Shown here one piece after another: positions 19,769 through 45,170 of a stretch of DNA of 63,570 bases (positions within the stretch are counted from its first letter, which is position 1; every line of letters begins with the position of its first letter). The stretch comes from Chloroflexota bacterium. GTDB lineage: Bacteria; Chloroflexota; Anaerolineae; UBA4142; SHND01. The stretch spans positions 1-63,570 of the forward strand of contig JAKOPZ010000219.1 of NCBI GenBank assembly GCA_029778615.1, in the 5' to 3' direction. The position numbers and the translations under genes are program-made. The notes below the pieces were generated by a model. That model searched no databases. It was not told the origin of the DNA and saw only the letters and a program-made list of their open reading frames with translations.

Positions 19769-19795
19769 TTAGCACTCGTTTGCGGGGAGTGCTAA
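19769..19795 (-). promoter_or_regulatory. CIRCE element (HrcA operator)
   Basis: TTAGCACTC (19769-19777), nine bases, and GAGTGCTAA (19787-19795) match the CIRCE consensus perfectly. It lies right downstream of the -10 element, so bound HrcA would block initiation at groS-groL. No hrcA gene is in the window. Confidence 0.97.
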
Positions 19796-20700: not shown

Positions 20701-23700
20701 ATGAACGCTTCACCGGTGTTTGGACCTCAACCATTTTCGCGCCAACAACGCAGTCTCCTCGTTGCCATCGCGGGGCTTTTGCTGGTCATCCTCACGCTCG
20801 GCGTCCTTCTCACGCTAAACGATTTGTTGGCGGGCGGCGCCGCATCCGGTCAAATTATTTTGCCCGCAATTTTGCTGCTGGCCGCGTTGGCATTGACGAC
20901 GGCTGTGGTTTTGTTCGCCATGTCCTTTCGACGCTCGGTTGGCGCAGAATTTACCCGCGCGTATCAATCGCTCGAATCCGAAGTGCTGGAACGTAAACGC
21001 GCCGAAGAGGCGCTCCGCTCCCAAAATGAATATTTTGCCGCGTTGAATGAAACCGCGCTCGGTCTCATCGGGCGACACAATTTGAATGAACTGCTCGCCG
21101 ATATTTTGAAACGCGCGGGCGATTTGGTGGGAACCCAAAACGGCTATGTCTTTTTGCTCGACCCCGAAACCGGCGAAATGGTCATGCGCGTTGGCGTGGG
21201 CGCGTATCAAGAATTTGTGGGCAACCATGCACAGCGGGGTGTTGCCTTGGCGGGCAAAGTTTGGCAAACCGGCGAAGCGGTGAATGTTGACGACTATCGC
21301 AATTGGAGCGGGCGCCTCGCCGACCCCAGCCGCAATATTTTGCGCGCCGTCGTTGGCATGCCGCTCAAGCGCGCGTCCGAGACGGGTGATGGTTCGCAAG
21401 AAGAGGTCATTGGTATCATCGGTTTGGCGCATCTGGAACCGGACAAACGCTTCGGTCCGACCGAGATGGACGTATTGAATCGGTTCGTCGCGCTCGCCGC
21501 GATTGCGCTAAACAACACGCAACTGTACGAATCCGCCGAACGCGAATTGGAGCAGCGCCGTTCCGCCGAAAAGGCGCTCGCATACGAACGCGACCTTCTC
21601 CGCGCGCTCATGGACAATGTGCCCGACATGATTTTTTTCAAAGACCGCGAATCGCGTTTTGTCCGCAGCAATCCCGCGCACTTGAAAAATCTCGGCGCCG
21701 CGAGTATGGAAGAGGTGTTTGGCAAGACCGACCTCGACTTTTTTCAGTCCGATGCCGCGCGAACGTATGTTGAAAATGAGCGCCGCATTGTGGAAACGGG
21801 CGTTCCGATGCTTAACGAGCTGGAGGCGGTGCCGTTGCCCGATGGCGCGAACTTGTATTTCTCCAGCACCAAAGTGCCATGGCGCGACGCCGAAGGCAAT
21901 ATCATCGGCACGTTGGCGATTTCGCGCAATATCACCGACCTCGTTCTCGCAGAACAAAAATTGCAAGATGAAGTGGCAGAACGCCAGCGCACAGAACAGT
22001 TCCTCGATTCGATTGTTGAAAACTTGCCGACGATGCTCTTTGTCAAAGACGCGCAGAATCTTCAGTTTGTGCGTTGGAACAAAGCCGCCGAAACGATTAC
22101 CGGACGTGCGCTCTCCGACATGCTCGGCAAGAATGATTATGACTTGTTCCCAAAGGACGAAGCTGATTTCTTTGTCTCCAAAGACCGCGAGACCTTGAAC
22201 GGTTCCCAAGTCCTGGACATTCCCGAAGAACCCATTGCGAACGCGAGCGGCGAAATTCGGTGGCTGCACACGAAAAAATTCCGCGTGATGGGCGCGGACG
22301 GCAAGCCCGCGTATCTGGTCGGCATTTCCGAAGATATTACCGAACGCAAACGCGCGGAACAAGAAGTGCGCGAAGCGCGCGAATTTTTAGAGACGCTCGT
22401 CAACAACATTCCGTTGGGCATTTTTGTCAAAGACGCAGCAGAGCTCCGCATGGTGCGCTGGAACAAAGCGAACGAGGTCATCACCGGAATTCCCGCCGCC
22501 CAAGTGATGGGCAAAACCGACCATGACCTGTTCCCGAAAGAGATTGCGGATGCTTTTGTCGCCAATGACCGCGCCACACTCGCCAGTGGTCAACTGTGGG
22601 ACACCCCCGAAGAACCAATCCAAACAGCCGAGCGCGGCTTGCGCTACCTGCACACGAAAAAAATCCCGCTGAACGACGCAACCGGCAAGCCGGCATTTTT
22701 GCTCGGCATCTCGGAAGATGTGACCGAACGCAAACGCGCAGATGACGCACTGCGCGAGAGTGAAGAGCGCTATCGCGATTTGTTTGAAAACGCGAACGAC
22801 TTGATTCAGTCCATCAGTGTGGACGGGCGCTTTTTGTTTGTCAATCAAGCGTGGAAAAATACGCTTGGCTATGATGATCAAGATATCGCCAACATGCGTT
22901 TCGTTGACGTGGTGCATCCCGATGGGCGCGCAGATTATTTTGAGCAAGTGGAAAAGGTCTTGCGCGGCGAAACCGTTTCTGAAATGACCGCGCAGCTCTT
23001 GACCAAAGACCGCCGCAAAGTGTGGGTCGAGGGAAGTGTCTCGCCGCGTATGGTGGACAACAAAGTGGTTTCGACACGCGCCATTTTCCGCAACGTGACC
23101 GAACGGCGTCTCGCAGAGGAACAAGCGGCATTCCAAAACGCGCTCCTCAACGCGCAGAACGACGTCTCGCCCGATGGCATTCTCGTTATCGGCAACGACG
23201 ACCGCGTCCTTTCTTTTAACAAACGCTTTGTCGAATTGTGGAACATTCCGCCCGAAGCGCTCGCAGATGGAAATGCCGAAGCAATGCGCGAGGCAGTGCG
23301 CGCGCAACTTGCCAACCCCGACGAGTGGGTGACGCGCACGGGCGCAATTTACATGCAGCAAGACAAGAGTTCGCATGACGAAATCAATTTCAAAGATGGT
23401 CGCGTGTTTGAACGCTACAGCGCGCCCGTCAAGAACGCAGAGGGCGCTTATCTGGGACGCGTTTGGTTTTTCCATGATGTGACCGAAATCAAACGCGCGG
23501 AACAAGAAGTTCGCCGCATTGTGGAATCGGCGGCGGCGGTGTTCTGGCGTTCCACCGTAACGGACTTGCATGACGAAACTTTGGACGCGCGCGGGTATCA
23601 CTGGGAGACGTATGTTTCCAATTTCGATTCGTTATCCCGCCGCATCCCATTGCGCCGCGAGCCCGGTCAATCCGATTTGGACGCGTGGTATTTCAGTTGG

Positions 23701-26472
23701 TTAGAGCAAGACCGCGAATTGATGAACGTACGCAGCTCCTCGGCGCTCCGAAATGGACAAGACAGTTATCAGCAGGAATTTCGGTTGCGTGACGCGAACG
23801 GCAAACTGCATTGGATGTACGAAGACGCGCGCATTACACGAGTGGACCCAGATCATTTTGAAGTAGTCGGCGTCACCATTGACATCACGGACCGCAAGCA
23901 GGCGGAAGAAGAGTTGCAGTACGAGCGTTATCTGCTCGATTCGTTGATGGACAATTTGCCGCACTATATCTATTTCAAAGACACCGAGAGTCGCTTTACG
24001 CGCATCAACCGCGCGCAGGCGGCACATCTTGGCTTGGAGCATCCATCCGAAGCGCTCGGCAAGTCGGACTTTGATTTCTACAGCCAAGAGCATGCTCGCC
24101 CGGCATACGAGGACGAGCAGACGATTATTCGAACGGGCGAACCAATCATTAACAAAGAAGAGCTCGAAACATATCCGGACGGCACAAAGCGTTGGGCGTC
24201 GGCGACGAAATTGCCGCTTCGACGCGGCGGCGAGATAATCGGAACCTTTGGGATTAGTCTTGATATTACCGAGCAAAAACTTGCCGAAGAGGCGCTCCGG
24301 GCGAATGAAACGCTTTATCACTCGCTGGTCGAAACCATTCCACAGTCTCTGACGCGCAAAGACCGCGAAGGACGCGTGACGTTTGGCAATACGCGCTTTT
24401 TCGAAGACACGGGCAAAGGTCCGGCGGATTTGTATGGCAAGACCGATTTCGATTTCCATCCGCGCGAATTGGCAGAAAAATATTGGCAAGATGATTTGCG
24501 CGTGCTGCGCGATGGCGAGACGATTGACACCATTGAACCGCACGAACGCGGCGACGGCACCCGTATCACCGTCCATGTGCTCAAGACGCCCATTCGAAAT
24601 CACCTCGGCGAAATTGACGGCATGCAAATCATGTTCTGGGATATTACCGAAGAACAACGCCGTCAGGAAGAAATTCGCAAACAGAATGCGTACTTGAACG
24701 CGCTGCAAGAAACGTCGCTCGGTTTGATGCAGCGTCTCGACGTGAACGCGTTGTTGGAAGATATTGTGGCGCGCGCCGGCGCGCTGGTGGGCACGGAAAA
24801 TGGTTACGTGTTTTTGCGCGACGCGGACTTTGAGGAAATGGAAATGCGCGTTGGCGTCGGCGCGTATGAAGGGTTTGTCGGACGCCGCACACGCATTGGG
24901 GTTGGATTGGCAGGGCAGGTGTGGGAGTCCGGCGCGCCAATTGTGGTAGATGATTATCGAAACTTTGGCGGACGTCTCGCCGATGCGAGCCGCGACATTC
25001 TGCGCGCGGTGGCGGGCGTGCCACTGCGCTCCGGCTCTGAAGTGATTGGCGTCATCGGGCTTGCCTTTTTGGACGAAGAGCACAAGTTCGGACCGGCGGA
25101 AATTCAGGTGTTGGAACGTTTTGCGCAGCTGGCGACGATTGCGCTCGACAATGCGCGTTTGTATGAAACGGCGCAGGAGGAACTGGCGGAACGCTCGCGT
25201 GTGGAAACCGCGCTCGCGCAGCAGCTGCGTGAAACGGAATTGTTGAACCGCGTTACCAATCACGCGGTGAGTTTGGATGTGGACACGGCGCTTGGCGCAA
25301 TTTGCCGCGAGCTGGCACAATACTTTGGCGTGGAACAGTCCGGCATTGCGCTGTTGAGTGAGGACGGCGAAACGCTCACCGTTGTCGCGGATTATTCCCC
25401 GCACAACGAATCCAAAGTTGTCGGTTACGTGATTCCGGTCAAAGGCAATCCCTCGACGGAAATTGTTTTGCAAACGCGGCGCGCCGTTGCCTTTGCCGAC
25501 GCGCAGACCGACCCGCGTCTCGCTCCGATTCACGACTTGATGAAAACGCGCGACACGGCTTCAATTTTGATTGCGCCACTTTTCGTGCGCGACGAAATCA
25601 TCGGCACGCTCGGCATTGATTCCACCACCCGACGCGAATTTTTGGAAAGCGAAGTTGCCTTGGTTCAACGTATCGCGCTCTCTATCTCTACCGCGTTGGA
25701 AAACGCGCGCTTGTTCCGCGCCGCGCAGCAAGAGTTGGCAGAACGCCGCCGTGTGGAACAAGAGATGCGTCAACGCAATCAAGAGCTCGAAGTGATTAGC
25801 CGCGTCTCTGCCGTCATGACCACAAATATTGACATGATTACGGCGCTCGAAACGCTTGCGCGCGAGTTGGTGCAAACGTTCCGCGCGCGCAACTGCGGCA
25901 TTGCGCTTTTGAACAATGACAAGACGAGTCTGACGGTTGTCGCCGACGCGCTCAGTTCGGAACATGAAGAGCACGCGGTCGGGATTGTGATTCCATTGGA
26001 AGGAAATCTTTCTTCGCAATACGTCGTCGAAAATCGCCGCTCGCTCGTGATACCGGATGCGCAGACCGACCCGATGACCGAGCCGATTCACGAACGAATG
26101 CGTCAACGCCAGACCAAATGTCTCGCCATCATTCCCTTGATGTCAGGCGGCGAAGTCATTGGCACCATCGGGTTGGATACCACAGACCCGAACCATGTCT
26201 TTAGCGATGAAGAAATCCGTCTCGCCGAAACGATGGCGAACCAGATGGCGAATGCGATTGAGAAACAGCGTTTGTTTGACCAGACCAAAGAGCGCGCGCG
26301 CCGCGAGCAATTGACGCGTGAAATTGGCGCGCACATGACGCGCTCGCTCGACCTGGAACAAATTTTGCAAACGACTGCGCGCGAGCTGAGTCAGGCGCTT
26401 GGCGCATCGCACGCGGTGGTACGAATGGGTGCAGGTGAAATGCAAAGCAACGGGGGGAATGGACACAGCTAG
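20701..26472 (+). CDS. Giant membrane sensor, TM2-GAF-PAS8-GAF3, no kinase domain
   Basis: A 1923-aa protein. Two membrane helices (about 18-39 and 52-76) and a coiled coil are followed by GAF1 (about 111-280), eight PAS domains (about 297-1320) and GAF2-4 (about 1330-1493, 1509-1670, 1690-1858). It ends in half a GAF (LEQILQTTARELSQAL). PAS2 and PAS3 are near copies (FVKDA, MGKTDHDLFPKE, PEEPI, LHTKK, GISEDITERK). GAF1 and GAF2 carry the VDDYRN..GRL motif shared across this cluster. I find no H-box, HATPase, GGDEF, EAL, cyclase or PP2C domain, so it lacks an output and must signal through partners. ATG 20701 follows CGGAGGA. It heads a five-gene plus-strand cluster. Confidence 0.85.
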   Translation: MNASPVFGPQPFSRQQRSLLVAIAGLLLVILTLGVLLTLNDLLAGGAASGQIILPAILLLAALALTTAVVLFAMSFRRSVGAEFTRAYQSLESEVLERKRAEEALRSQNEYFAALNETALGLIGRHNLNELLADILKRAGDLVGTQNGYVFLLDPETGEMVMRVGVGAYQEFVGNHAQRGVALAGKVWQTGEAVNVDDYRNWSGRLADPSRNILRAVVGMPLKRASETGDGSQEEVIGIIGLAHLEPDKRFGPTEMDVLNRFVALAAIALNNTQLYESAERELEQRRSAEKALAYERDLLRALMDNVPDMIFFKDRESRFVRSNPAHLKNLGAASMEEVFGKTDLDFFQSDAARTYVENERRIVETGVPMLNELEAVPLPDGANLYFSSTKVPWRDAEGNIIGTLAISRNITDLVLAEQKLQDEVAERQRTEQFLDSIVENLPTMLFVKDAQNLQFVRWNKAAETITGRALSDMLGKNDYDLFPKDEADFFVSKDRETLNGSQVLDIPEEPIANASGEIRWLHTKKFRVMGADGKPAYLVGISEDITERKRAEQEVREAREFLETLVNNIPLGIFVKDAAELRMVRWNKANEVITGIPAAQVMGKTDHDLFPKEIADAFVANDRATLASGQLWDTPEEPIQTAERGLRYLHTKKIPLNDATGKPAFLLGISEDVTERKRADDALRESEERYRDLFENANDLIQSISVDGRFLFVNQAWKNTLGYDDQDIANMRFVDVVHPDGRADYFEQVEKVLRGETVSEMTAQLLTKDRRKVWVEGSVSPRMVDNKVVSTRAIFRNVTERRLAEEQAAFQNALLNAQNDVSPDGILVIGNDDRVLSFNKRFVELWNIPPEALADGNAEAMREAVRAQLANPDEWVTRTGAIYMQQDKSSHDEINFKDGRVFERYSAPVKNAEGAYLGRVWFFHDVTEIKRAEQEVRRIVESAAAVFWRSTVTDLHDETLDARGYHWETYVSNFDSLSRRIPLRREPGQSDLDAWYFSWLEQDRELMNVRSSSALRNGQDSYQQEFRLRDANGKLHWMYEDARITRVDPDHFEVVGVTIDITDRKQAEEELQYERYLLDSLMDNLPHYIYFKDTESRFTRINRAQAAHLGLEHPSEALGKSDFDFYSQEHARPAYEDEQTIIRTGEPIINKEELETYPDGTKRWASATKLPLRRGGEIIGTFGISLDITEQKLAEEALRANETLYHSLVETIPQSLTRKDREGRVTFGNTRFFEDTGKGPADLYGKTDFDFHPRELAEKYWQDDLRVLRDGETIDTIEPHERGDGTRITVHVLKTPIRNHLGEIDGMQIMFWDITEEQRRQEEIRKQNAYLNALQETSLGLMQRLDVNALLEDIVARAGALVGTENGYVFLRDADFEEMEMRVGVGAYEGFVGRRTRIGVGLAGQVWESGAPIVVDDYRNFGGRLADASRDILRAVAGVPLRSGSEVIGVIGLAFLDEEHKFGPAEIQVLERFAQLATIALDNARLYETAQEELAERSRVETALAQQLRETELLNRVTNHAVSLDVDTALGAICRELAQYFGVEQSGIALLSEDGETLTVVADYSPHNESKVVGYVIPVKGNPSTEIVLQTRRAVAFADAQTDPRLAPIHDLMKTRDTASILIAPLFVRDEIIGTLGIDSTTRREFLESEVALVQRIALSISTALENARLFRAAQQELAERRRVEQEMRQRNQELEVISRVSAVMTTNIDMITALETLARELVQTFRARNCGIALLNNDKTSLTVVADALSSEHEEHAVGIVIPLEGNLSSQYVVENRRSLVIPDAQTDPMTEPIHERMRQRQTKCLAIIPLMSGGEVIGTIGLDTTDPNHVFSDEEIRLAETMANQMANAIEKQRLFDQTKERARREQLTREIGAHMTRSLDLEQILQTTARELSQALGASHAVVRMGAGEMQSNGGNGHS

Positions 26473-26589
26473 TGTCCGGGACGCGCGCGTGGCGAGGGAA
26501 ACAGGCGCGCGTTAAATCCCTATCCCTCATCAATGTCCGCGCACTCGTCAAGGTGCGGCAGGGCAACATCATCTACCTCGGAGGGTACA

Positions 26590-27381
26590 ATGCCTGAGAA
26601 ACAAAGCATGGACATACATGTTCCCAATGCTGCGCGCGTGTATGACTATTCGCTCGGCGGCTCGCATAATTTTGAGGCAGACCGTCAGGCGGCAGAGTTT
26701 ATGTTTACGCTCGTTCCTTCGACCAAGAAATGGGTGCGCTTGTTGCGAATGTTTTTGCACGACGCAGCACAAGAACTCTCGGCTCAGGGTTTCACTCATT
26801 TCCTCGACCTCGCATCAGGTCTGCCCACAGTGGAACACATCCATTCCACTCTGCCCGATGCCAAAGTAATTTATGTGGACAATGACCCCGTTGTCGTCAG
26901 TTACGGAATGGAAATTTTGGGGAATAGTCCCAACGTCCGTTTTCTCGAAGCCGATATTCGCGATATAGATTCGGTCCTGGCTTCGCCCGTGATTCCGGAA
27001 GTGTTTGGCAGCAATCGTCACGTGGCGATTGGTTTGAACGGTGTCACGGTCTTTTTGTCTGATGAGGAAATTCAACGCATCATGCAGGCAACGTACGACT
27101 GGGCAGCGCCGGGCAGCAAAATGTGGATTACATGGGAAACCCAAGCCGCAGGCGCCATGACCCCGCAATGGGGACAGTTTCTTGGCATGTTTGAACAAAT
27201 GGGTTCGCCGATGCACCTCGTCCCCGAAGACAAGGCGCGCGAATTGGTGAAACCATGGCAGCCCGATGCGCGCGGTTTTCGCCCCATTACCGATTGGCTG
27301 AACTTGAACGGTTACATTTCTGAATCCGACCGCGAGGGCGTGGGTTTGGAATTTTATGGTGTATACGTAGAGAAACCGTAA
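26590..27381 (+). CDS. SAM-dependent methyltransferase, PF04672-like (DUF574)
   Basis: A 263-aa protein. The family signature is at the N-terminus: IHVPNAARVYDYSLGGSHNF then EADRQAAEFM. The Rossmann SAM site is FLDLASGLPTVEH with the acidic strand end VIYVDNDPVVVSYG, and FLEADIRD follows. The C-terminal part (GFRPITDWLNLNGYI, GVGLEFYGVYVEKP) completes the fold. Members of this family are mostly actinobacterial and substrates are generally unknown. ATG 26590 follows GGAGGG. It lies between two kinase-less sensor genes on the same strand, which suggests a role in the same pathway, for example modifying a sensor or its ligand; this is inference. Confidence 0.85.
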   Translation: MPEKQSMDIHVPNAARVYDYSLGGSHNFEADRQAAEFMFTLVPSTKKWVRLLRMFLHDAAQELSAQGFTHFLDLASGLPTVEHIHSTLPDAKVIYVDNDPVVVSYGMEILGNSPNVRFLEADIRDIDSVLASPVIPEVFGSNRHVAIGLNGVTVFLSDEEIQRIMQATYDWAAPGSKMWITWETQAAGAMTPQWGQFLGMFEQMGSPMHLVPEDKARELVKPWQPDARGFRPITDWLNLNGYISESDREGVGLEFYGVYVEKP

Positions 27382-27391
27382 CGGAAGTTTT

Positions 27392-27434
27392 CTGAGCATT
27401 GTCTGCGCGCAAGCTCAGCGCAGACAATGCTCAG
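27392..27434. repeat. Perfect intergenic hairpin inside the sensor cluster
   Basis: CTGAGCATTGTCTGCGC (27392-27408) and its exact reverse complement (27418-27434) form a 17-bp stem with a 9-nt loop. No T-run follows, so it is more likely an mRNA stability or processing hairpin than a terminator. Confidence 0.75.
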
Positions 27435-27471
27435 GCAGTGGTTGCCTTTTTCGCGGCGCAGGGAGACTTGC

Positions 27472-30400
27472 ATGACAACAATGGATTCACCCGCACAGAA
27501 AATCACGCGTGCCGAACCGACCCTTCAAGACGCGCGGGAGCGTTTGCGCCAAGCGGCGCCGCGCTTGCGTGACCTGGTGGTCCAAGAGATTCGGGCAAAC
27601 ACGGTGGAAATGGTTGGACCCTTTTCCTCAATGCGGCAAATTCCTGCGCTGGCAGAACAGATTGTGGCGCAATTTCTGGATGTCGTCAGTGACGGCATCA
27701 CGGCGGCAGAAATGCAAGAGCGTCTGCAGAGTTGGGTGCAGCGCGGTTTGGGACCGCAAGGCGCGTTTGCGATTGCGGATACGCTCTTTGATGCAGGGAT
27801 GGAAATTGACAAATGTCTCGCGCCCGCGCTGACCAATTATCGTCGTTGGTTCACCACCGGCTATGAAGCGGCGCGGCGTACAGAAATTTTGCGTGACCAA
27901 GAACGAATGCAGCGCAGCTTGTCTGCCGCGCTCGAACGACAAATCTCCAGTGAACGCGCGTTACGCGCCTCGTTGCAGCGTCGTCAGGGACAGCTGGAGC
28001 TCGCGGCAGAGTTGGCGCGCCTCACCGGTTCGACGCGCGACCTCGACGAACTGTTATCTGTTGCCGTGCGGCATCTGTTTGAAACCTTGCAGCTCGATTT
28101 TGTGGGAATTTATTTGTTGGATGATTTCCAGTCGTGGGCGGTTTTGCGCGCGGGTTCGGGCGCCGCAGGCAGTGCGCTGTTGACGCAGGGCTATCAAATC
28201 AAATTGGATACCGATTCACCCTTGAGCCGCGCCGCGAATCAAGGTGAACCGCTTTTGCTCGTGGATGGAAAATTTCGCGGCTCTCTTTTTGTGCAACCGC
28301 TGCTTCCCGCGATGGCACAAGCGATTGTGGCGCCGCTTGTCACGCGCGGACAATCGCTTGGCTTTTTGACCCTGCACAGCCAGGACCGCGACAAGTTCAC
28401 AAGCCAAGACCTCACCGTTCTTTCCATCATTGCAGACAATTTGGGGCACGCCATCGAAAACGCCCAACTCTTTGCTCAAGCACAATCCAATTTGCAGGAA
28501 CTGGAACGCGCTCAACGCGGCTTTGTCCGCGAATCGTGGGCGGACGAATCACTCACCAAAAAAATTGTTTATTCTCAAACCGCAGACAAGTTTGATTTGG
28601 AAACGGTACAAGCGCAGTCCGTCCTCAGCGAAAGCGGCAACGGCAGCGCGCCGGATGGCGCGTTGAGCGTTCCGATTACTTTGCGTGGTCAAGTCATCGG
28701 GACGGTGGATTTAATTGATGTGACGCAAGCGCGTAACTGGAGCGAGAGCGACAAGGCGCTGGCGTCCAGCGTGGTGGAACAAATGGCGCTCGCGGTCGAA
28801 AATGCGCGCTTGTTTGAACAGTCACGGCAGCGCGCCCAAGAGCTGACCGCCATCAACGAAATTACCAACGTCATTTCACAGCAGCTGCATATTGACCGCT
28901 TGTTGGCTGAAGTCCACGCGCAAGTAGAACGCGTGATGCCTGCCGACGCGTTCTTTGTCAGTCTGTATGATGAAGCGAATGACTCGATTGCGTATCCGTT
29001 TATTTATGATGATGGCAAGCGCTATGAAAGTCCAAGCGCCCCGCTCGCGCCGCGCGGGTCATTACGCCAAGTGGTAAACACGGGCAAATCCATCCTCATC
29101 AATCGCACCCCACAAGAAATTTCAGAGGCGCGGGCGCGCATGAACAGCGAGACCGCGATGGGCGATATGTCCAAAGTGTCCGCGTCGTTGCTGTATGCGC
29201 CGCTGCGTCTCGGCGAACGCGTCGTCGGCGTTATCTCGGCGCAGAGTTATGAACCCAACGCCTATTCGCCGCGCGATGTCGAATTGTTGGAAGGGATTGG
29301 CATTCATGTCGCCGTCGCGTTGCAAAATGCGCGACTCTTTGAAGCCACCCAAACGCGCGCGCAGGAGACTGCCATCATCAACGAAATGGCGCGCGAGCTC
29401 TCCGGCGAATTGGACCAGGACAATCTCTTTGGGATTGTTTATAAATATCTTCCGCGTTTGATGCCGATGGACGCGTTTATTGTGTGGTTCTATGACGCCG
29501 CCTCCAATACGATTACGCGTCCCGCGCTGTACGATTTGGGCGTCAAGTATCCGCCTGCCATGACGCCCGTCGCGCCCACAGACCGTCTCGTACAGATTCT
29601 GGAAACGAACGAGGCGTTGACCATCAATCGCTCGCGGCAAGAGCTGGAGAATGAAGCAGGCGACACCCGCGACACGATGGGTTCACTGCAAATTGCGGCA
29701 TCATTGCTTTATGCTCCGCTGCGGATTGGTAATCAGATACGCGGATTCGTTTCCGTCCAATCGTACGAGTTCAACGCGTATGGCGGACCGCAAGCGGCGT
29801 TGCTGCAAAGCATCAGCAGTTACCTTGCGACGGCGTTGGAAAATTTGCGGCTCTTTCAAGAAATTCAAGCCGCCCTTTCCGAAACACAGCTCTTGTATCG
29901 CATCGGCGCGCAATTGAACCAAGTTACTTCGCTGGATGAATTGGTACGGATTGCGGCGCAGCCCGGCTTTGAGCAGGGCGCAGGTTCGGCGCAGTTGCTA
30001 TTGATGGAATATCAAGGTGCGGGCAATCCCGTCGCCGCCAATGTGGTCGTGAGCTTGGTTGCGCCCGGTGAACCCGCCGTGTTGTCGGGCTATGTGCATT
30101 TTCCAATTCGTGAATTTCAACTCGGGCAAGCCATGCTCGCAAATCCGCGCGAATTGGTGATGATTGAAAATGTCGAGACGCATCCGCAGCTGGATGCGTC
30201 AACGCGGCGAGTCTTGTTGGAATCGAATGACCGCGCGGTGGTGTTGTTGCCGCTCAGTGTGGAGCAACGCATTCTCGGCGCGATTGCAATTGGGTGGGCG
30301 GTCCCGCACAGTTTTAATCTGCAAGAACGCCGCGTGTATCAAGCGTTGGCTTCGCAGTTGGCATTGGTGTTGAACAATCGTTTGTTGTTTGAACAAACCG

Positions 30401-32760
30401 AGCAGGCGCTGGCAGAAACACAAACGTTGTATGAAATCGGCGCGCGGCTGAACGCGGCGACGACCTTGCAAGAAGCGTTGGAAGCGGCAGCCGGTCCTGC
30501 CATCGTGATGGGCGCCGTCAGCGCGTCTCTGCTGCACGTGCACACCGATTCTCAGGGTGAACCGCAAGAATTGGAATTGCTGGCGACATGGCCCCGCGAC
30601 CCGAACAATCCGTTGGCTGTTGGCGCTCGCTTTGGCGCCGAGTTCCTTTCCGGCGACCGTTCGTGGATTGAGCAGCCGAACGAACCGCGCGTGCTAAGCG
30701 ACATTGAAAATGACCCGGACATTAGCCAAGCTGCCAAACAACTGTACATGGCGCGCGGTCTGAAAGCGAGCGCCTTACTCCCCCTCAAAATTGGTTCACG
30801 CTGGATTGGGATGTTGAGCCAGAGCTGGCAAGAACCGCACAACTTTACGGCGCGCGATATACGACTCTTTCGCTCGATTATGGGACAGACGGCGACGGTG
30901 ATGGACAACCGCGCACTGTTTGCCCAAACGCAAGCGGCGTTGGCGCTGACCGAAAACTTGTATCGCGCGAGTCAAGCCCTCTCCGCCGCGAGTGATTTGC
31001 AAGAGCTGGTGCGCGCCGTTGCCGAATCGGTGCGGATTCCCAGCGTCAATCGCGCGGTGCTCTTGATTCTGGAACGCGATGAGAATGACGAATTGGATTC
31101 AATGCACGTTGCCGCAAATTGGTACAGCGGCGAAGGTTTGGAACCGACGCCGGTCGGCACAAATTATCCGCGCCAGATTTTTCAGGCAATCCCGATTGTG
31201 TTGGGACGCACGGTGGAATTTTTCAACGATACGTCAAACGAACAACGGCTCGACCCTTCGTCGCGTGCATTGTTTGCGCGGCAGCAGATTGTTTCCGTCG
31301 CGCTGATGCCATTGTGGGTTGGTGGAATGCAGCGCGGCGCATTACTCTTGGAAACGCAAACGCCGCATGTCTTTACGGATGACGAAACGCGTGCGTTGGT
31401 GTCGCTTGCGCCGCAGCTCGCCATCGCGATTGAAAACCGCCGTTTGTTTGATGCCACACAAGAGGCGTTGGCACAAACGCAAGACGCGTTGAATCAGGTC
31501 CAGGAAGCGCAGGAACGTTTGAACTTGCAGTACCAAACGGCAAACATTTTGGCGCGCGCCACGTCGTTCGGACAAGCCGCGCCGCTCCTCTTGCAGAATA
31601 CATGTCGTTCGCTCAATTGGCAGATGGGCGAGTATTGGACAGTGGACGAGACGTTTAATCGTCTCGTGTTGTCGCACGTGTGGACGGAAGATGACCCCGA
31701 GCTGCAAGACTTTGCTTCGGATTCCTACGGCTTGACGTTTGGACCGGGTGAGGGCTTGGCGGGGCGAACGTGGGCAGAGGGTCAGCCCATTTGGGTCGCG
31801 GACCTTGCAACGGATACGGGGTTCAAACAATTGGGCAAGGCGACGCGGGCAGGACTTGTGAGCGCACTCGCGTTTCCTTTGCAAAGCGAAGCGCGTCAAT
31901 TTGGCGTGACTGTCTTTTTTAGCACGCATCCTCAAGTGATGGACGATACGTTGATGACGACAATGATTGGTGTAGGCAGTCAAATCGGACAGTACATCGA
32001 ACGGCGGCGCGCGGAAGAAGCAGTGCGCCAGCAGAATACCTACCTCACGGCACTACATGATACGACACTCGGTCTGATGGGACGTCTCGACCTTGATGAA
32101 CTTTTGCAGAATATCATCACGCGCGCAGGTGAATTGGTCGGCACAGAACATGGCTATGTGCATTTGATTGAACCTTCGGGCAATGAATTGCGGATGCGCG
32201 TCGGGATTGGTATTTATCAGGATTTTATTGGCACGCGCGTAAAAATGGGGCAAGGGCTGGCGGGGACGGTTTGGCGCAATGAAGAAGCAATTGTGGTGGA
32301 CGACTATCGCAATTGGCAAGGACGTTTGCCGATGGTTGACCGCGATGTGCTGCGCGCAGTGGTCGGCGTGCCGTTGAAATCAGGAAATCAAACGGTCGGC
32401 GTGTTGGGCTTGGCGTCACTGGAAGAGGGACGCAAATTTTCTACAGCGCAAACCGAAGCGTTGGAGCGGTTCGCCGAATTGGCGGCGGTGGCGTTGGACA
32501 ACGCGCAGCTGTACAACTCGACCCAGCAAGCGCTCCAGCAAACACAGCGGCTTGCCCAACGTGAAAAAGCGAGCGCCGAAATTGCTGATAAATTGTATGC
32601 CGCACCGGATGTCAAAAGCGTGCTGCAAACGGCGGCGCAAGAGCTGCTTCGTAACACCGGCAGTCGGCGCGCGGTCGTGCGTTTGAATTTGGGCAAGAAT
32701 GGCAAAGCGAACGATAAAGATTCCGTCGCCGCGTCTGCCGAGCCCGATACGACTGTCTAA
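27472..32760 (+). CDS. Giant soluble sensor, helical N-domain plus eight GAF domains, no kinase
   Basis: A 1762-aa protein with no membrane segment. The N-terminal 15-150 region is helical ([39 protein letters not shown]) and recalls RsbR-type N-domains, though I cannot prove homology. GAF1 is at about 173-335, a half-GAF at 343-448 ([14 protein letters not shown]), then GAF2-GAF8 from 456 to 1685, each ending in N-A/R-R/L-LF-type helices. GAF8 carries [11 protein letters not shown]. The C-terminal cap [20 protein letters not shown] mirrors that of the first sensor. No transmitter domain is present. ATG 27472 follows CAGGGAGA. The gene is followed by only 34 bp before the kinase gene. Confidence 0.85.
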
Positions 32761-32794
32761 AGGCGTGTGGCTGTGGATTGGAGAGAAAAGTATC

Positions 32795-35700
32795 ATGGCG
32801 CTTAACCACGAACAAAGCGAACGCTCGCAGAGGTCAAAATTTCGAATTGAATTGGTGATTGCGCTGATTGGCGTACTGACGTATGCGATTTCGGCAGTCG
32901 TCTATGCGTTGTACGGATTCGTGTCGCAAACGTCCAGTCTGTACTGGAGCGCGCTCATTCAGGTACCGAATGCGTTGGTGTGGTTATATGTGCTTGTGCG
33001 CGTGCTCAAGCGTCAAGATGCCCGGAGCGCGTTTGAAATCGCCTTTGTCTTTTTATTTGTGACCGCGCCGCTGAATTCGTTGTTTATTGCAGGCATCGGC
33101 GCGATTGTGGGACTCGGCACCGGCATTGCTGCGGTCGCGGCGGTAGGATTGGTCTTGCCAAATCGGCGCGTGCAGTGGTTCATGATTGGCGCGGTCATTT
33201 CTGCAATTGTTTCGTTTTTGCTCGACCTGTTTGGCTCCGCTGCCCGCGTCAATCCGGCGCTGCCGAACAGTACAAATAACATTCTCATTGCCGTCGCGAC
33301 CATCATTGTTCTGCTCCTGCTCATTAGCCAATTCCGCAATTTTTCTCTCCGCACCAAGCTCATTACCGTTTTCGTCGCCCTCGCCGTTATTTCCACACTT
33401 GGCATCACGCTCGTTTCCGCGCAAGCCATTCGCGATAGTCTGTCGTCCACGTTGGCGCGCGACTTGAGGACGCGCGCACAAGCTGCCGCGCTGGCTGTGG
33501 GCATTACGATGGACCGCAACGTGGACCGCTTGCTCACGCTGACGCTCGACCGCAATGTGCAGGACGCCATTCAAAGCGTTGACGATGCGTATCCGAGTCA
33601 AGCGCCAGCGCGCACACAACTCATTGCCGAAAACACAAAACGTTGGGAAAGCGCGAATCCACAAGACCGCGTAATTCAAGACGCGCTCAATAGCCCGTTA
33701 TCATCCAGTTTGCACAAGTTCAGCAGCGTGTTTCCCGGCAACAAAGAAATGTTCATGACCGACGCGTTTGGCGCGGTTGTCGCGGCGACGGATTGGCAGC
33801 CGACGTATGATTTTTCAAACGCCGAGTGGTGGCGCATCTCGTACAACGCTGGTCGCGGCACCGTGTACATCGGGCAGCCCGAATTCAATCCGATGATTAA
33901 CGAATATGGTATTCGGATTGCGATGCCGATTTATCAAGTGGGCACTCCAAAAGTGGTCGGCGTCTTGCACAGCATTTTCACGTTGAACGCGTTGCAGCAA
34001 ACCTTGTTTCTCAACAATTTTGGACAGACCGGCAAAATTGACTTGTTATTTCCGACGGGACAAATTCTCACTTCCGATGGAACATTTCGCGCACTGACTG
34101 CCGACGAATTCACACAAATCAAAGCGGGTATTGGCGACCCGCTTGCGGTGTTGGACTATCGCGGAACGCCGCTGCTCTCGGGGCAGGGTGTGGTCGGCGT
34201 GACGGACGTACAGCCGGAACCGTATTTGCGCTCGAGCGCATGGCGCGCGATTGCAACCGTTCAAGAAGAAGAAGTTTTGGGCGCGATTGAAGCAGGCGCG
34301 CAAGCAGCGCTCTTGGCAGGCATCGTCAGTATCGGCATTGCGATTTTGGTCGCGCTCCTTCTCGCACAATTCTTGACGCGTCCGATTCGACGGCTCACCA
34401 CAGTGGCGGAAGAAATCCAAAGCGGCAATCTCGCCGCGCGCGCGCCGGTGGAAACGGGAGACGAAATCGGCGCCTTGGCGCGCACGTTTAACGGGATGAC
34501 CGCGCGGTTGCAAGACACGTTGATGGGTTTGGAACTGCGCGTAACGGAACGCACGCGCGAATTGTCGCAGGCGAATTTGAATCTCCAAGCCAACAGCGCG
34601 TATCTCTCGGCATTGAGCGATACATCCGCCGGTCTGTTCGAACGCCTCGATGTAAGTGAATTGCTGCACGCGATTTTGGAACGCGCAGGCGCGCTGGTGG
34701 GCACCCAACACGGATTCGTCTTTTTCTCGGAACCGGGCGACAGCGAAATTGAAATGCGCGTGGGCGCGGGTCTGTACGATGATTTGGTGGGCACGCGCGC
34801 ACAGCCCGGCATCGGTTTGGCAGGCACTGTTTGGCAGTCCGGTCAGCCGATGACGATTGAAGACTATCAAAAGTGGGAAGGGCGTTTGCCGGGGTCGCGC
34901 CGTGATGCGCTGCGCGCGATTGTGGCTGTCCCGCTCAAACGCGGCGGCGGCGTCGGCAGCCAGGATGATGAAACCGTCGGCGTCATCGGTCTCGCGTATA
35001 CGGATGGCGAACGCAAATTTGGCAAGACGGAAGTGGAAATTCTCCAGCGGTTCGCGCAGCTCGCGTCCATTGCGTTGGACAATGCGACGCTGTATGCGAA
35101 TTCCGAACAGCGCGTGCAAGAGCTCGGTGTGCTCAACAGCATCAGCCAAATCATTGTCCAGCCCGGCGATTTCAAAACGACGATTGAACGCGTAGGCGAA
35201 AAGATTCGAAACAGCTTTGACGCTGACTTTGGTTATTTCGCGCTGGTGAATCAAGAATCGAATCTGATTGAATTTCCTTATGCGGTGGATGACGGGGCGC
35301 GCATTGAACTGGAACCGATAAAGCTGGGCGAAGGCATTACGTCGCAGGTTATTCAAACAGGCGAACCGGTGCTGTTGACCCACGCGACCGCAGGCGATTA
35401 CGAACGACTCGGCGCGGTAGATTCGGGTGATGGCAGTTCGCCGCATTCGTTGTTGGCGGTGCCTGTGCGTACGGGTGAGCAGGTCATTGGCGCGCTTTCG
35501 GTGCAACGCGTTGCGCAGGACCGCCCGTTCACGGACGAGGACCTGCGTTTGTTGACCACCATCGCGACCAACGTCGGCGTCGGCGTCGAAAATGTGCGGC
35601 TCGCGGAGGCGACTCTGCGGCGCGTGCAAGAACTCTCCGCGTTGAATCGCATCAGCGCGATTTTGAACACGCCTGCCGAGTTTCGCTCACGCTTGCATCA

Positions 35701-38700
35701 AGTCGGTTTTGAACTGGCAAAAATCTTTCAGGTATCGAGCGTGTACATTGCCATGTACGATGTCGTTCATGACATGGTAGAAATGCCGTTCTTTGTGGAA
35801 GACGGAATCGAACAAGAAATTCCGCCGCGCCCGCGCGGGACCGGCTTGGTTTCGCACATGCTCCAAACGCGCGAACCGCTTGTCATCAATCACAACATGC
35901 AGCAGCGCTTTGAGGAACTGGGCGGCATTTGGATTGGCAATTCGGATGTGCAAACCAAGTCGTATCTCGGCGTGCCGCTCGTCGTCGGCAACACGGCGCT
36001 GGGCGCGATTGCATTGAACGCGGAAACCGAAAATCGGTTTACGGATGCGGACTTGAAATTCTTGCAAACGCTCGCGGCGACGGTGGCTGCCGCGATTGAA
36101 AATGCGCGCCTCTTGGAGCAAACGCAAGAACGCGCGCGCGAGCTCGCCGCCGTGAACTCGCTGGCGCGTGAAATTACGCAGCAGCGTTCGCTTGCCAGTC
36201 TGTTTGACCAGGTGTATTTGCAAGTCAAGTCCGTCTCTTCTGCCGACGGGCTGGTGTTGAGTTTGTACGACGAAGGTACGGATACGCTGACGGTGCCGTT
36301 TTTGATTGACGAAGGAGAACGCCACCAGATTACGCCGGAGGCGCTGCAATGGGAACGCACATATGCGGCGCAAGTCCGCACGGGCGAACCCATCTTGATT
36401 AACAGCACACCGGAACAAGTGGCAGAGCTCGAGGCACATCCTGCCGTGGCGGGCAGCGGGCGCGCGTCGCGTTCGCGTCTGTATATTCCATTGATGGCGG
36501 GCGCGAATTTTCTGGGCATGCTGTCGGTGCACAGCTATACCTACAACGCGTATACACAACGCGATGTTGCGGTGTTGACCGGTCTCGCGAGTCACATTGC
36601 CGTCGCGTTGGAAAACGCGCGTTTGTTTGAACAAACGCAGAACGCGTTGGCAGAAACCAATCGGCTCTATCGCATCACCGAAGCGGCGAACGCGGAGACC
36701 GACGAACTCGCGTTTTACAAACGCGTGCACGAAATCGTCGGCGAAGCCATGGACGCCAAAAATTTCTTTGTTGCTCTGTACAACGAAGCGGATTCGACGC
36801 TCGACATGGCGTACTATGTGGACGAAAAAGATGTTTTGCCCGAAATGCCTTTGCGCCGCGTGAACATGGGGTCGGGTGTCACCGCGTATGTTTTGCGGAC
36901 GCGTAAACCGCTGCGCGCGACCCGCGCCGAGATTAAAGCATTGGCGGAGCGCGGAGAATTGCAACAACACGGCGGCGAGTCCGAGGCGTGGCTCGGCGTG
37001 CCGATGTTGGTCGGCGATAAACCGATTGGCGTAATTGCGGTGCAAAGTTATGCGCCCGGGGCAGTGTATTCCGAGCGCCACGAACAAATCTTGGTGCGTC
37101 TATCGCAGGCGCTTGCGAATGCGATTGAGCGGAAACGTGCCGAAGAAGCGCTGCGCCAGAGCCAAGCGCAATTGGCAGAAACGATGCGGCTCACGCGTCT
37201 GGGCAATTGGGAATACGATGTCGCGTCCGATACGTTCACCTTCAACGACGATTTTTATGCCATGATGCGAACGACGGCAGAGCGCGAAGGCGGTTATACC
37301 ATGCACTCTGCCCAATATGCCGAGCGCTTTGTGTATCCCGAAGACGCGCCGATGGTGGGACAAGAAGTTGTGGCGGCGCTTGAAACGACCGACCCAAATT
37401 ATCTCAAGCAGCTTGACCATCGCGTTTATTTTGGCGATGGACAGCTCGGCTATGTGTCTGTGCGGATTCGTGTGCGCAAAGATGCGGCGGGGCGCACGGT
37501 GCAAACGTATGGCGCCAATTTGGATATTACCGACCGCAAGCGCGCGGAGATTGAACTTCAGGCGGCGCTCGACGAAACACAGCGCCTCGCCGAGCAAGCG
37601 CGCGAATCGGCATCGCAAGTGACCGCGCTGAACCGCCGCTTGACGCGCGAAGGTTGGCGCGAATATTTGGAGCAGCTGAACTCGCGTCTGGTGGTGGAAG
37701 CCGGCGGTGAGGAATATGGAAACGGTAACGGCGCGCTCACTCCCGAACGCAGCGGCGGGCACAACGGCGACAATGGGAACGACGCGAACGGGAACGGCAA
37801 GGAAAAAATCTTGGTGCCGATTCAACTGCGCGGCGAAGTCATCGGCGAAATCGAATTGGAGCCGGACCAGACCGCGCGCCCGATGACGCCGGAAGATATG
37901 GGCTTGGTCACGCACATTGCCGAAAACATTGGCTTGGCGCTCGACAATGCGCGGCTCTTTACGGAAACCCAACGTCGGCTCACCGAACTGGACGCGTTGA
38001 ACTCGATTTCGCTCGCGGTCACCAGCGAACTTGAATTGGATTCACTGTTGAACGTCATTGGCGAGCAGCTGCGCTCGATATTCGAAGTCCAAAATATCTA
38101 TATCGCGCTGTATGATTCGCAAACGCAGATGATTTCGCTGCCGTACTTTGTCAATGACAACGAGCGTGTTACGGTGGAGCCCATCCCGTATGGTGAAGGC
38201 ATTACCTCGCACATTATCCGAACGCGCGAGCCGTTGATTATCAATTCGAATGTTACCGCGCGTATGGTAGAGCTGGGCGCGCGCGTGTTCGGGAATCCCG
38301 CGCGTTCGTATCTCGGCGTCCCGATTTTCGTCGGCGATGATGTAACAGGTGTTATCAGTATTCAAAGCACAGAGCGCGAAGGATTGTTCGACGAGGCGAA
38401 TGTGCGGTTGATGGAAACGATTGCGGCAACGGTTGGCACCGCCATTCAGAACGCGCAATTGTATGGCGCCATGCAGCAAGAGGTTGTGGTGCGCCAGCGC
38501 GCCGAAGAAGAAATCAAATTGTCCTTGAAGGAAAAAGAAGTGCTGCTCAAAGAAATTCATCACCGCGTCAAAAACAATCTGCAAATTATCACGTCCCTGC
38601 TCAATTTGCAGTCGGCACAAATCAAAGACCCCGACGCCATCATGCTGTTCCGCGAAAGTCAATCGCGGGTGCGCTCGATGGCGCTGATTCACGAAAAATT

Positions 38701-39133
38701 GTACCAGTCCAAAGATTTGGCGCGGATTGATTTCGACGGCTATCTGCGCGACCTCATGGTGTACTTGTTCCGTTCATACGCGGCGAACCCGGACCAAATT
38801 CGTACACACATTGAATCCGGCAATATGTATCTCGGCATTGACACCGCGATTCCGTGCGGCTTGATGATTAGCGAATTGGTCACCAACACCATCAAGTACG
38901 CGTTTCCAAACGGCAGACGCGGTAATTTGTATGTGAGTATCGGACCCGAAGATGATGGACATTTGACCTTGCTGGTCAGAGATGACGGCGTTGGATTTCC
39001 CGAAGGTTTCGATTGGCGCGAGAGTGATTCGCTGGGGCTGCAATTGGTGAGCACCCTCACGTCACAATTGCACGGCACAGTTCAAGTGGACGGCAAGAAC
39101 GGCACCAGTTTCAAAATTACGTTCCCGGGTTAA
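32795..39133 (+). CDS. Membrane Cache-HAMP-GAF-PAS sensor histidine kinase, HisKA_2 type
   Basis: A 2112-aa kinase. About six membrane helices (17-185) are followed by a helix (188-210), an extracytoplasmic Cache-like domain (about 215-495), a helix (503-527) and HAMP (to about 582). GAF1-5 follow (about 598-1443), then a PAS (about 1463-1582), a half-GAF ([14 protein letters not shown]), GAF6 (about 1729-1890) and the transmitter. The H-box is [14 protein letters not shown] with His1922/1923, typical of HisKA_2 (HWE-related). The HATPase has [23 protein letters not shown] and [15 protein letters not shown]. It is complete and should autophosphorylate. ATG 32795 is chosen to place the first helix near the N-terminus. 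GAF1 has the related motif [10 protein letters not shown]. Confidence 0.9.
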
Positions 39134-39209
39134 GTTTCAGGCGTAACGCATGTTAGAATAATCGCCGCGCATGAGCGCGGACGGGCAAATTTGAGAGAGG
39201 TGGGATGGT

Positions 39210-42062
39210 ATGAACGATACGCGGATTATGATTGTTGAAGATGAACGGATTGTAGCCAAAGATTTACAATTTCGCTTGCAAGGTCTCGGTTATCAAGTCG
39301 CGGCGATGGCGTCCGAAGGAAATGATGCGATTGCCAAAGCGACCGTCGCGCGTCCGCATCTGGTCTTGATGGATATTCGCATCGAAGGCGACATTGATGG
39401 AATTCAAACCGCCGAAGCCATTCGTTCCGAGTTGGATATTCCGGTTGTGTTTCTCACCGCGTATGCCGACCAGGCAACCTTGGCGCGCGCCAAAATTACA
39501 GAACCCTTTGGGTACATTCTGAAACCGTTTGAGGAACGCGAACTGCAATCCACAATCGAAATCGCGCTGTATCGTCACAAAGCGGAACAGCGTTTGCGCG
39601 AAAGCGAAAAGCGTTATCGTTCGCTGGTGGACAACAGTCAAGGGCTCATTTGGACCCACGACCTCACGGGCGTGCTCATGTCCATCAATCCGGCGGCGGC
39701 GCATCTTCTCGGTTACGAACCCGCCGAAGTGGTGGGGCGCGACCTGCGCGAATTTGTGCCTGAGGAGCACCATAGCGCGCTCGCTCAATATCTTGAACGC
39801 ATGAAAGAACAAGAGAGTGATGATGGCATTGTTCAAGTCGTCACGCGCGGTGGCGATACGCGTCTCTTGCAATACCGCAACGTGCGTCACGATGAACCCG
39901 GACGCGAACCGTACATTCTGGCACACGCGGCGGATGTGACAGACCGCTTGCGCGTGGAACAAGTCCTGCGTGACCAGAATGCGTATCTCACCGCGCTGCA
40001 CGAGACCACTCTCGGTTTGATGAGCCGTCTCGACTTGGAAGATTTGCTCGAACAAATCATTGCGCGCGCGGCGGGACTCGTCGGCACAGAGCACGGTTAT
40101 GTCTTTTTGCTTTCGCCGCAGCGCGATGCGAATGGCGAACAAGAAATGATTATGCGGGTTGGGATTGGCGCGTACAACGGTTTCAAGGGTACCAAAGCCA
40201 ACAAAGGTGTTGGGCTGGCAGGCACAGTTTGGCAGACCGGGGAACCGCTGGTGGTGGACGATTATCGCAATTGGCAGGGGCGTCTCGCGTTGTCTTCGCG
40301 CGACATTTTGCGCGCCGTTGCGGGTGTGCCGCTGAAATCGGGCGCGCAGTCGGTGGGCGTTATCGGTCTCGCCTATTTGGAAGAGGGACGTTATTTTGGC
40401 AAGCAAGAAATGCAGGCGCTCACGCGCTTTGCCGAACTCGCGTCCATCTCGTTGGACAATGCGCGTTTGTACGAAGCGGTGCAGACCGAATTGCGCGAAC
40501 GCAAACGCGCCGAAGACCAATTGCGGAGCGCAGAAAATTTTCTCGGCACGGTGGTGGACAACTTGCCGTACATGATTTTTGTCAAGGACGCGCAAGACTT
40601 GCGTTTTGTGCGCTTCAACAAAGCGGGCGAACACCTGCTCGGAACAACCACCGCCGCGCTGTTGGGCAAGAATGATTACGATTTCTTTCCCACCGAAGAA
40701 GCAGTGTTCTTTGAAAAAAAGGACCGCGAAACACTCGCCTCCGGCAAAATCACCGACATTCCCGAAGAACCTATCGAAACGCCTCACGGCAAGCGTTTTT
40801 TGCACACCAAGAAAATTCCGGTGCTCGACCCCGACGGACAGCCGAAATATCTGCTCGGCATTTCAGAAGATATTACCGAACGCAAGCTGGAAGAAGAGCG
40901 TCAGCGCGCCTTTGAGCGCAAACTTCAGGAGACGCAAAAATTGGAATCGCTCGGCGTGCTCGCGGGTGGTATCGCGCACGATTTCAATAATTTGCTCGTG
41001 TCCATTTTGGGCAATGTCGGTCTCGTGCTGGTTGACCTTGAACCCGATTCACCTGTGCGCGAACCTGTGGAGCAAATCAAAGTTGCCGCTCAACGCGCTG
41101 CTGACCTCACGCGGCAGATGTTGGCATATTCCGGCAAGGGACGCTTTGTGCTCCAGCGCATCAATCTCAACAGCGTCATTACCGAGATTACGCAGCTGCT
41201 TCAAGTGTCCATCAGCAAAAGTGCCACGCTCCGTTTCAATCTGATGCAAAATTTGCCGCCGATTGAGGGCGATGTGACCCAAGTGCGTCAGGTATTGATG
41301 AACCTCATCGTCAATGCCTCTGACGCGTTGGGCGACAAACAGGGCACCATTGGACTGACGACGGGCATCGTGAACGCCGACCGCGAATATTTGGCGGGCA
41401 GCTTTATGGCGCCCGAACTGCCGGAAGGGCGTTACGCATTTGTCGAAGTTGCGGATGACGGTGTTGGCATGGACCGCGAAACGCAGGGCAAAATTTTTGA
41501 CCCGTTCTTTACGACCAAGTTCACAGGACGCGGTTTGGGGCTCGCGGCGGTGTTGGGCATTGTGCGCGGGCACGGTGGCGCAATCAAAGTCTACAGCGAA
41601 CCCGGGCAGGGCTCGGTTTTCCGCATCCTTTTCCCTGTCAAAGACGCCCCGCACGAAGTTGAAAAAGCCCCGGCTGATATGCTCAAAGCCAAAGGGAATG
41701 GGACGGTTTTGGTCATTGACGATGAAGAGGTGGTTCGCAATGTGACCAAACGCATGTTGGCGCGCATCGGTTACACTCCGCTCCTCGCCGAAGATGGTCC
41801 CAACGGCATTGAAGTCTATCAAAAACACAAGGATGAAGTGGTCTGCGTGCTTTTGGATATGACAATGCCCCGCATGAGCGGCGAAGAAACGCTCGGCAAT
41901 CTAAAGCGCATCAACCCAAATGTGCGGGTCTTGCTGATGAGCGGCTATTCCGAACAAGAAGCCAGCAACCGCTTTAACGGCAAAGGCGTTTCTGCCTTTA
42001 TGCAAAAACCCTATACTCCGCAGGATTTGCAGGCAAAATTGAGCGAGATTCTGGAAGATTGA
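39210..42062 (+). CDS. REC-PAS-GAF-PAS hybrid histidine kinase
   Basis: A 950-aa cytoplasmic protein. REC1 (1-120) has Asp55 in LVLMDIRI and the lysine in ILKPFEE. PAS1 is at about 135-250, GAF at 259-423 ([11 protein letters not shown]), PAS2 at 444-563 (near-identical to PAS2/PAS3 of the first sensor). HisKA has GGIAHDFNNLLVSILGNV with His590; HATPase carries LMNLIVNASDAL, EVADDGVGM and FTGRGLGLAAVLGI. REC2 (about 831-950) has Asp883 in VCVLLDMTMPRMSGEE. Starting with a REC domain suggests it receives phosphate, plausibly from the preceding kinase, then relays it to REC2. No HPt or DNA-binding output is nearby. ATG 39210 follows GAGAGGTGGG. A terminator follows at 42120. Confidence 0.92.
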   Translation: MNDTRIMIVEDERIVAKDLQFRLQGLGYQVAAMASEGNDAIAKATVARPHLVLMDIRIEGDIDGIQTAEAIRSELDIPVVFLTAYADQATLARAKITEPFGYILKPFEERELQSTIEIALYRHKAEQRLRESEKRYRSLVDNSQGLIWTHDLTGVLMSINPAAAHLLGYEPAEVVGRDLREFVPEEHHSALAQYLERMKEQESDDGIVQVVTRGGDTRLLQYRNVRHDEPGREPYILAHAADVTDRLRVEQVLRDQNAYLTALHETTLGLMSRLDLEDLLEQIIARAAGLVGTEHGYVFLLSPQRDANGEQEMIMRVGIGAYNGFKGTKANKGVGLAGTVWQTGEPLVVDDYRNWQGRLALSSRDILRAVAGVPLKSGAQSVGVIGLAYLEEGRYFGKQEMQALTRFAELASISLDNARLYEAVQTELRERKRAEDQLRSAENFLGTVVDNLPYMIFVKDAQDLRFVRFNKAGEHLLGTTTAALLGKNDYDFFPTEEAVFFEKKDRETLASGKITDIPEEPIETPHGKRFLHTKKIPVLDPDGQPKYLLGISEDITERKLEEERQRAFERKLQETQKLESLGVLAGGIAHDFNNLLVSILGNVGLVLVDLEPDSPVREPVEQIKVAAQRAADLTRQMLAYSGKGRFVLQRINLNSVITEITQLLQVSISKSATLRFNLMQNLPPIEGDVTQVRQVLMNLIVNASDALGDKQGTIGLTTGIVNADREYLAGSFMAPELPEGRYAFVEVADDGVGMDRETQGKIFDPFFTTKFTGRGLGLAAVLGIVRGHGGAIKVYSEPGQGSVFRILFPVKDAPHEVEKAPADMLKAKGNGTVLVIDDEEVVRNVTKRMLARIGYTPLLAEDGPNGIEVYQKHKDEVVCVLLDMTMPRMSGEETLGNLKRINPNVRVLLMSGYSEQEASNRFNGKGVSAFMQKPYTPQDLQAKLSEILED

Positions 42063-42119
42063 GTCCTCAATTTTGCAGAGAAAAATCTGGCAGAGAAACT
42101 TGACGACGAGTTTAGAACG

Positions 42120-42148
42120 ATGGGCGGTCTTGGGACCGCCCATTTTTT
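42120..42148 (+). terminator. Terminator closing the sensor cluster
   Basis: ATGGGCGGTC (42120-42129) pairs with GACCGCCCAT (42134-42143) around TTGG and is followed by TTTTT. It lies 58 bp after the hybrid kinase stop and before HMG-CoA reductase. Confidence 0.88.
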
Positions 42149-42254
42149 GTTCAGAAACGCGATGATTGTATCTCGTTTCACAACCCTGATAGCTTTTGAC
42201 AGCGGCTTTAGAGAAAATTGCAGAAGAAAGCACGTATCATCATCGAGGCGACCA

Positions 42255-43475: not shown

Positions 43476-43541
43476 GAATCATTCGCTTTCAAAACAACGT
43501 ATGTCTAGTGACAAACGAAAGAGCTCCAAAAACAAACCACT

Positions 43542-45164: not shown

Positions 45165-45170
45165 ATCTTT

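Follow-up and report, generated by a model that had tools for sequence, protein, structure and literature searches.

The window analysed here, a stretch of 63,570 nucleotides from a Chloroflexota bacterium, carries a cluster of five genes, two of which encode large sensors with no evident means of passing a signal on. The question raised by this locus is where the signals of these sensors go. The answer that we favour, with a probability of about 0.6, is that the cluster belongs, as a small example, to a group of Chloroflexota loci, the tailed sensor arrays, in which kinase-less receptors signal in trans, through a common C-terminal tail, to the kinase or kinases at the end of the array. The sequence comparisons below lend good support to a coupling of the sensors with the neighbouring kinase; the tail is the putative coupling element, through which docking may occur.

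Organization and conservation of the five-gene cluster

The five open reading frames, here called g1 to g5, are all intact and lie on the + strand between positions 20701 and 42062, in agreement with the original prediction, whose domain orders are also borne out by Pfam. g1 (20701 to 26472) encodes a membrane sensor of the order TM-GAF-PAS(x8)-GAF(x3) followed by half of a GAF domain, and Pfam recognizes in it a GAF, a PAS series and three GAF domains. g2 (26590 to 27381) is a SAM-dependent methyltransferase of the PF04672 family (E = 4.6e-43; 148 bits against a curated cut-off of 26, covering profile positions 4-231 of 268) with the PDB relatives 2qe6 and 3giw; its reading frame opens at 26533, but a GGAGG-like site favours the start at 26590. 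g3 (27427 to 32760, the start being either 27427 or 27472) encodes a soluble sensor in which Pfam sees GAF domains only. It had been described as a string of eight GAF domains; we count nine GAF-type stretches, one of them degenerate, preceded by a helical N-terminal domain of about 170 residues (27514 to 28017) that is unknown to Pfam and for which no PDB relative was found by sequence. g4 (32795 to 39133) is a TM-Cache-HAMP-GAF-PAS-GAF-HisKA_2-HATPase kinase with its kinase part at about 38552-39127 (Pfam: Cache-HAMP-GAF-HisKA_2-HATPase; the PAS domain was recognized by eye). Finally, g5 (39210 to 42062) is a hybrid kinase of the order REC-PAS-GAF-PAS-HisKA-HATPase-REC, in which REC and HATPase_c exceed the Pfam cut-offs while HisKA, at 25.0 bits, falls just under its cut-off of 26.9; the H-box GGIAHDFNN is visible in the translation.

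The intergenic gaps, predicted to span 34-117 bp, measure 117, 45-90, 34 and 76 bp from g1 to g5, the second depending on the start of g3. GGAGG-like ribosome sites are found at the starts of g1 (20701) and g5 (39210) as well as at that of g2. The single strong terminator proposed for the end of the cluster was likewise recovered (+ strand, 42119 to 42150; hairpin at 42119-42144 plus a U-tract, fold -25.4 kcal/mol, z -5.4), and none of the four gaps between g1 and g5 contains a terminator-like site. The original prediction had also described g1 and g3 as lacking any output domain and had named a hidden one as grounds for giving up its view; neither Pfam nor NCBIfam finds a transmitter, cyclase, GGDEF/EAL, phosphatase or DNA-binding output domain in either protein, and their NCBIfam matches to whole regulators cover the GAF/PAS parts only.

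The host (a 6.0-Mb assembly in 372 contigs) and five relatives give a sample of six genomes for the genus. The locus is present, linked and in the same surroundings in all six, each copy encoding, besides two to three sensors that lack a kinase, a single HisKA_2 kinase and a single REC-first hybrid kinase; unlinked genes in related genomes would have counted against the original prediction. Within the locus, conservation is highest for g5 (80-88% identity across the genus), and the sensors differ in domain number, deletions, insertions and domain shuffling being frequent among them. Their frames are nevertheless long and open in every species. In three genomes (G001, G003 and G004), a third kinase-less sensor resembles the Cache-HAMP-GAF part of g4 without the kinase end, and a separate HisKA_2 kinase is present. 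In G004 (L029:6035-17370), the C-terminal part of g1 and g3 are fused in one reading frame of 2749 residues after a run of N; this lends weak support to a g1-g3 partnership and could be an assembly effect.

The methyltransferase, which the original prediction listed as a part of the cluster, is found in four of the six loci and is absent from two; it is an accessory and not a core part. The G003 copy could be taken for a pseudogene, an interpretation that we rejected since its in-frame stop comes before the real start codon and the gene is intact. It should be noted that one locus (L017:12910-14682, corresponding to G001:C9:44910-46682) has a tandem pair of PF04672-related genes, a full-length and a shorter one, that are only about 34% identical.

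As for the surroundings, a divergent groESL pair lies upstream of the cluster (groES was recognized by eye from its sequence), and a CIRCE element, TTAGCACTC-N9-GAGTGCTAA, lies upstream of these two genes at window positions 19769-19795. Directly past the terminator (42120-46325) are genes for HMG-CoA reductase, an HMG-CoA synthase-like protein, a DinB-like protein and thiolase, and genes of matching size also lie downstream of the cluster in the other genomes of the genus.

A half-GAF tail and the arrays that carry it

g1 and g3 end alike, a feature that the original prediction missed and that is likely the coupling element. Both finish in a tail of about 54 residues that represents the start of a GAF domain only, namely helices 1 and 2 and strand 1 (a1-a2-b1). 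The tail of g1 lies at 26278 to 26436 (+ strand; profile A1, E = 6.6e-27) with 11 residues left before the stop, and that of g3 at 32536 to 32697 (+ strand; E = 1.6e-27) with 20 residues left. The C-termini are alike in all sensors of the genus loci, and the third sensor of the three genomes mentioned above bears the standard tail, while g4 and g5 have none. The consensus after the last GAF helix is RxAxREK..EI........D...ILQTA..EL...G...AVVRLN, with the stop 1-31 residues later; strand b1 is weakly conserved or absent in many tails. Clear tails occur in the host genome in g1 and g3 only; two weaker matches from the whole genome continue beyond the end of the sequence pieces that contain them and are therefore internal.

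The position of the tail is exclusive. A profile built from 16 tails gave, in regions of 17 genomes, 103 terminal matches (1-38 residues to the stop, median 15) and 2 weak internal ones. A broader profile of 57 tails matched 123 proteins with scores of at least 20 bits, never farther than 60 residues from the stop and never in an internal GAF, the top internal score being 17.2; some of the scored tails sat in the training sets, and the 16-tail test is the cleaner one because most of its matches were unseen. The possibility that the tail is simply an ordinary GAF start was thus rejected. dN/dS values of the tail, mostly 0.03-0.3, indicate purifying selection. We also considered whether the tail is better conserved than the neighbouring domain as a general rule: this holds for a large part of the genus and for certain arrays but fails in the family f29, several arrays of which conserve the tail no better than the preceding 225 residues, and tail conservation was therefore dropped as a general support.

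The tail profile is matched at an E-value of 1e-6 or better in 44 of 150 genomes of the class and, with a stricter cut-off, in 35 of 301 genomes of a phylum sample, some of them outside the class. Matches in 3 of 198 actinobacterial genomes were rejected as tails since all of them lie inside the protein, 354-364 residues before the stop. In other Chloroflexota, genes with the tail follow one another on the same strand, 4-13 to an array, and are separated by short gaps or overlap; near-complete genomes, e.g. the single-contig G046, have arrays of up to 12-13. Among 70 tailed proteins scanned with Pfam, all have GAF domains, 31 have HAMP, 15 dCache and 15 MASE11; HisKA, HATPase, REC, GGDEF, EAL and HTH are found in none. 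A histidine kinase, usually with two C-terminal REC domains, lies no more than two genes past the last sensor in all 28 arrays with a readable 3′ side, one of these matches (G148) being weak. In the window locus, too, the tails stand no more than 60 residues before the stop, no copy is internal, and a kinase adjoins the sensors.

The sensor-then-kinase layout thus recurs across the class; widespread in Chloroflexota and apparently undescribed, it suggests that many receptors are joined to one kinase, in the manner of chemotaxis receptors. The original proposal that the two sensors serve as inputs for the neighbouring kinases is strengthened by this recurrence, by the lack of a hidden output domain and by the linkage in the whole genus; the physical circuit is still inferred.

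Genes at the array end

Three array families, f29, f51 and f52, have a ParA-type ATPase gene between the last sensor and the kinase. The identity of two scanned products is clear (PF13614, E = 3e-51 and 1e-48), and about 15 further ParA genes were recognized by their start sequence. In the locus L084, for example, the ParA gene (7784-8572) precedes the array kinase (4669-7818) and overlaps its start, and a dedicated ParA before the kinase is also found in L127, L128, L134, L139, L140 and L146. The ParA-linked kinases start with M[PS]KKxxxxKRLDxLFxxI, resembling the start of ParB in such genomes (MAQRKGLGKGLDALI in G267).

A PF04672 methyltransferase occupies the position of ParA in G063, G144 and a Thermoflexales record (L009/G136), and the enzyme adjoins array kinases in two other families, f11 and f23. 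The hybrid kinases of the methyltransferase-linked group, from other Chloroflexota, carry the g3-type N-terminal domain (hhalign probability 97.9%, E = 5.5e-13). The simplest history would be that g3 derives from such a kinase by loss of the transmitter, with a tail in its place.

In many arrays the gene after the kinase encodes a fusion of an intact receiver with an enzyme resembling threonine synthase (PDB 2d1f, E = 1e-43; e.g. L084:2998-4650, L128:3984-5636 and L138:4579-6249). Tail and fusion occur together in 39 of 150 genomes, with 5 genomes having the tail only and 6 the fusion only (Fisher p = 4e-24, relatedness being ignored). A literature search returned nothing relevant on threonine-synthase-REC proteins. 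The window locus contains neither this fusion nor a ParA gene.

Possible routes from sensor to kinase

The tail was modelled with AlphaFold2 in a tailed sensor of 453 residues (mean pLDDT 84) and in the last 278 residues of g3 (mean 88). In both models, the last GAF domain continues as one helix into the tail, and a second helix then completes a helical hairpin; confidence is high for the tail helices (about 90 in g3), and the b1 segment is unpaired and of low confidence. The unpaired b1 in these models fits an incomplete domain that would await a partner. A Foldseek search with the model of the 453-residue sensor returned ordinary GAF relatives only. A candidate partner is found in f29, where 15 of 16 kinase heads detected match the last part of the GAF profile only, i.e. 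the complement of the tail. The head of these kinases is an orphan C-terminal half of a GAF domain and, together with the tail, could make up one whole domain, which suggests split-GAF pairing in f29-type families. The kinases of the window genus have no such head (g4 begins with TM/Cache and g5 with REC, and no orphan GAF half is present at either start), so that the tail would have to pair with the helices of an intact GAF domain in g4 or g5.

What can be read from the sequences is the tail, its exclusively C-terminal position, the absent output domains, the kinase linkage and the constraint. From these we picture several GAF/PAS receptors, membrane-bound and soluble, that have no kinase but share the half-GAF tail and that would pass their signals in trans to the array-end kinases, the recipients in the window being g4, of the HisKA_2 type, and the hybrid kinase g5 with its leading REC. 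Going by what is familiar from these protein families, our guess is that g4 passes its phosphoryl group on to the N-terminal REC of g5 in a phosphorelay. The methyltransferase may modify an array protein or its ligand.

A rather unlikely alternative is that the sensors couple by general GAF/PAS and coiled-coil hetero-oligomerization, the tail being a cap or dimerization element and not a docking site. The four large proteins g1, g3, g4 and g5 do share one closely related GAF domain each (44-61% identical), and the frequent rearrangement of the sensors would suit this view. However, a mere cap has no need for one tail sequence in 123 proteins with differing preceding domains, and the tail is found also on sensors that otherwise match a kinase. 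It is more doubtful still that the sensors are substrates of the PF04672 enzyme, which would methylate residues of sensors or kinases in a CheR-like receptor adaptation. Its place inside the window locus and beside the kinases of f11 and f23 would agree with this, as would a weak similarity of g2 to LCM carboxyl methyltransferases (E = 0.0065), but the enzyme is missing from a third of the genus loci and ParA takes its place in f29, f51 and f52.

The sensors could also signal to an unlinked partner, with the kinase linkage a regulatory convenience. CheY-like REC genes do lie within array loci, yet a kinase adjoins every readable array, in several families, which makes this improbable. Least of all do we expect the kinase-less sensors to be decaying or passive kinase remnants with no signalling role. 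The domain that g3 has in common with intact hybrid kinases would be explained in this way, but open frames throughout the genus, purifying selection and a standard tail argue against decay, as do arrays of up to 12-13 sensors in near-complete genomes such as G046. We therefore retain signalling in trans through the tail as the preferred reading. A more elaborate version of it is tentative and, taken as a whole, doubtful: the arrays may form a distinct class in which up to a dozen receptors plug their half-GAF into a GAF socket of one hybrid kinase, with, in several families, a dedicated ParA that would position the array by reading the ParB-like kinase peptide, and with an output in the form of the threonine-synthase-like enzyme under control of its receiver.

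Precedents for a GAF protein that has no kinase of its own and controls a histidine kinase in trans are CvnF8-CvnA8 (PMC13343842) and NreA-NreB (cited in PMC8199190). The likeness, a GAF protein that lacks a kinase and whose gene adjoins a kinase gene, extends to all six genus loci and to the 28 readable arrays (one of them weakly); as those systems are described in these sources, they differ in having one small GAF protein per kinase, no common C-terminal tail and no arrays of 2-13 large sensors. Chemosensory arrays (MCP-CheW-CheA) similarly connect numerous receptors, which are not kinases themselves and have one signalling segment in common, to one kinase, and a ParA homologue positions a cytoplasmic receptor cluster in the PpfA/TlpT system (PMC6829392), comparable to the ParA-type protein beside the arrays of several tailed families, some arrays having a methyltransferase as well. 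In contrast, the tailed arrays have no MCP signalling domain, CheW or CheA: PF00015 is found in none of 70 tailed sensors nor in the genus loci scanned, no CheW or Hpt is present among the neighbours scanned, the kinases scanned are HisKA or HisKA_2 proteins including HisKA hybrid kinases, and the common segment is half a GAF domain. Multi-GAF/PAS hybrid histidine kinases have the same input domains, and some sensors match such kinases cut before the transmitter, but the tailed arrays split input and transmitter between genes and provide several inputs per transmitter. The solved PF04672 proteins (Tfu_2867, 2qe6; the DUF574 protein, 3giw), of which family g2 is a clear member, have no known function, and their link to sensory arrays is not described in the literature searched.

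The original claim that no described pathway has this composition agrees with our search of the literature, in which subscription journals are thinly covered and neither the tailed-array layout nor a half or split GAF nor Anaerolineae GAF clusters were found described; the composition is, however, not peculiar to the host genome. We provisionally regard the layout as new. If our reading is right, Chloroflexota have a second way, unrelated to chemotaxis receptors, of connecting numerous receptors with a single kinase. The tail of 55 residues would then be the point at which to test this, and through it an output could be predicted for many output-less ‘GAF domain-containing proteins’. The repeated occurrence of ParA genes hints at positioning within the cell, and that of the threonine-synthase-REC genes at an output into metabolism.

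Some sensor arrays also include genes for periplasmic substrate-binding proteins (L018:5073-6260, L077:13115-14128 and L088:17064-18038, with Peripla_BP_6, ABC_sub_bind and NMT1 domains), hinting at a delivery of ligands to the sensors.
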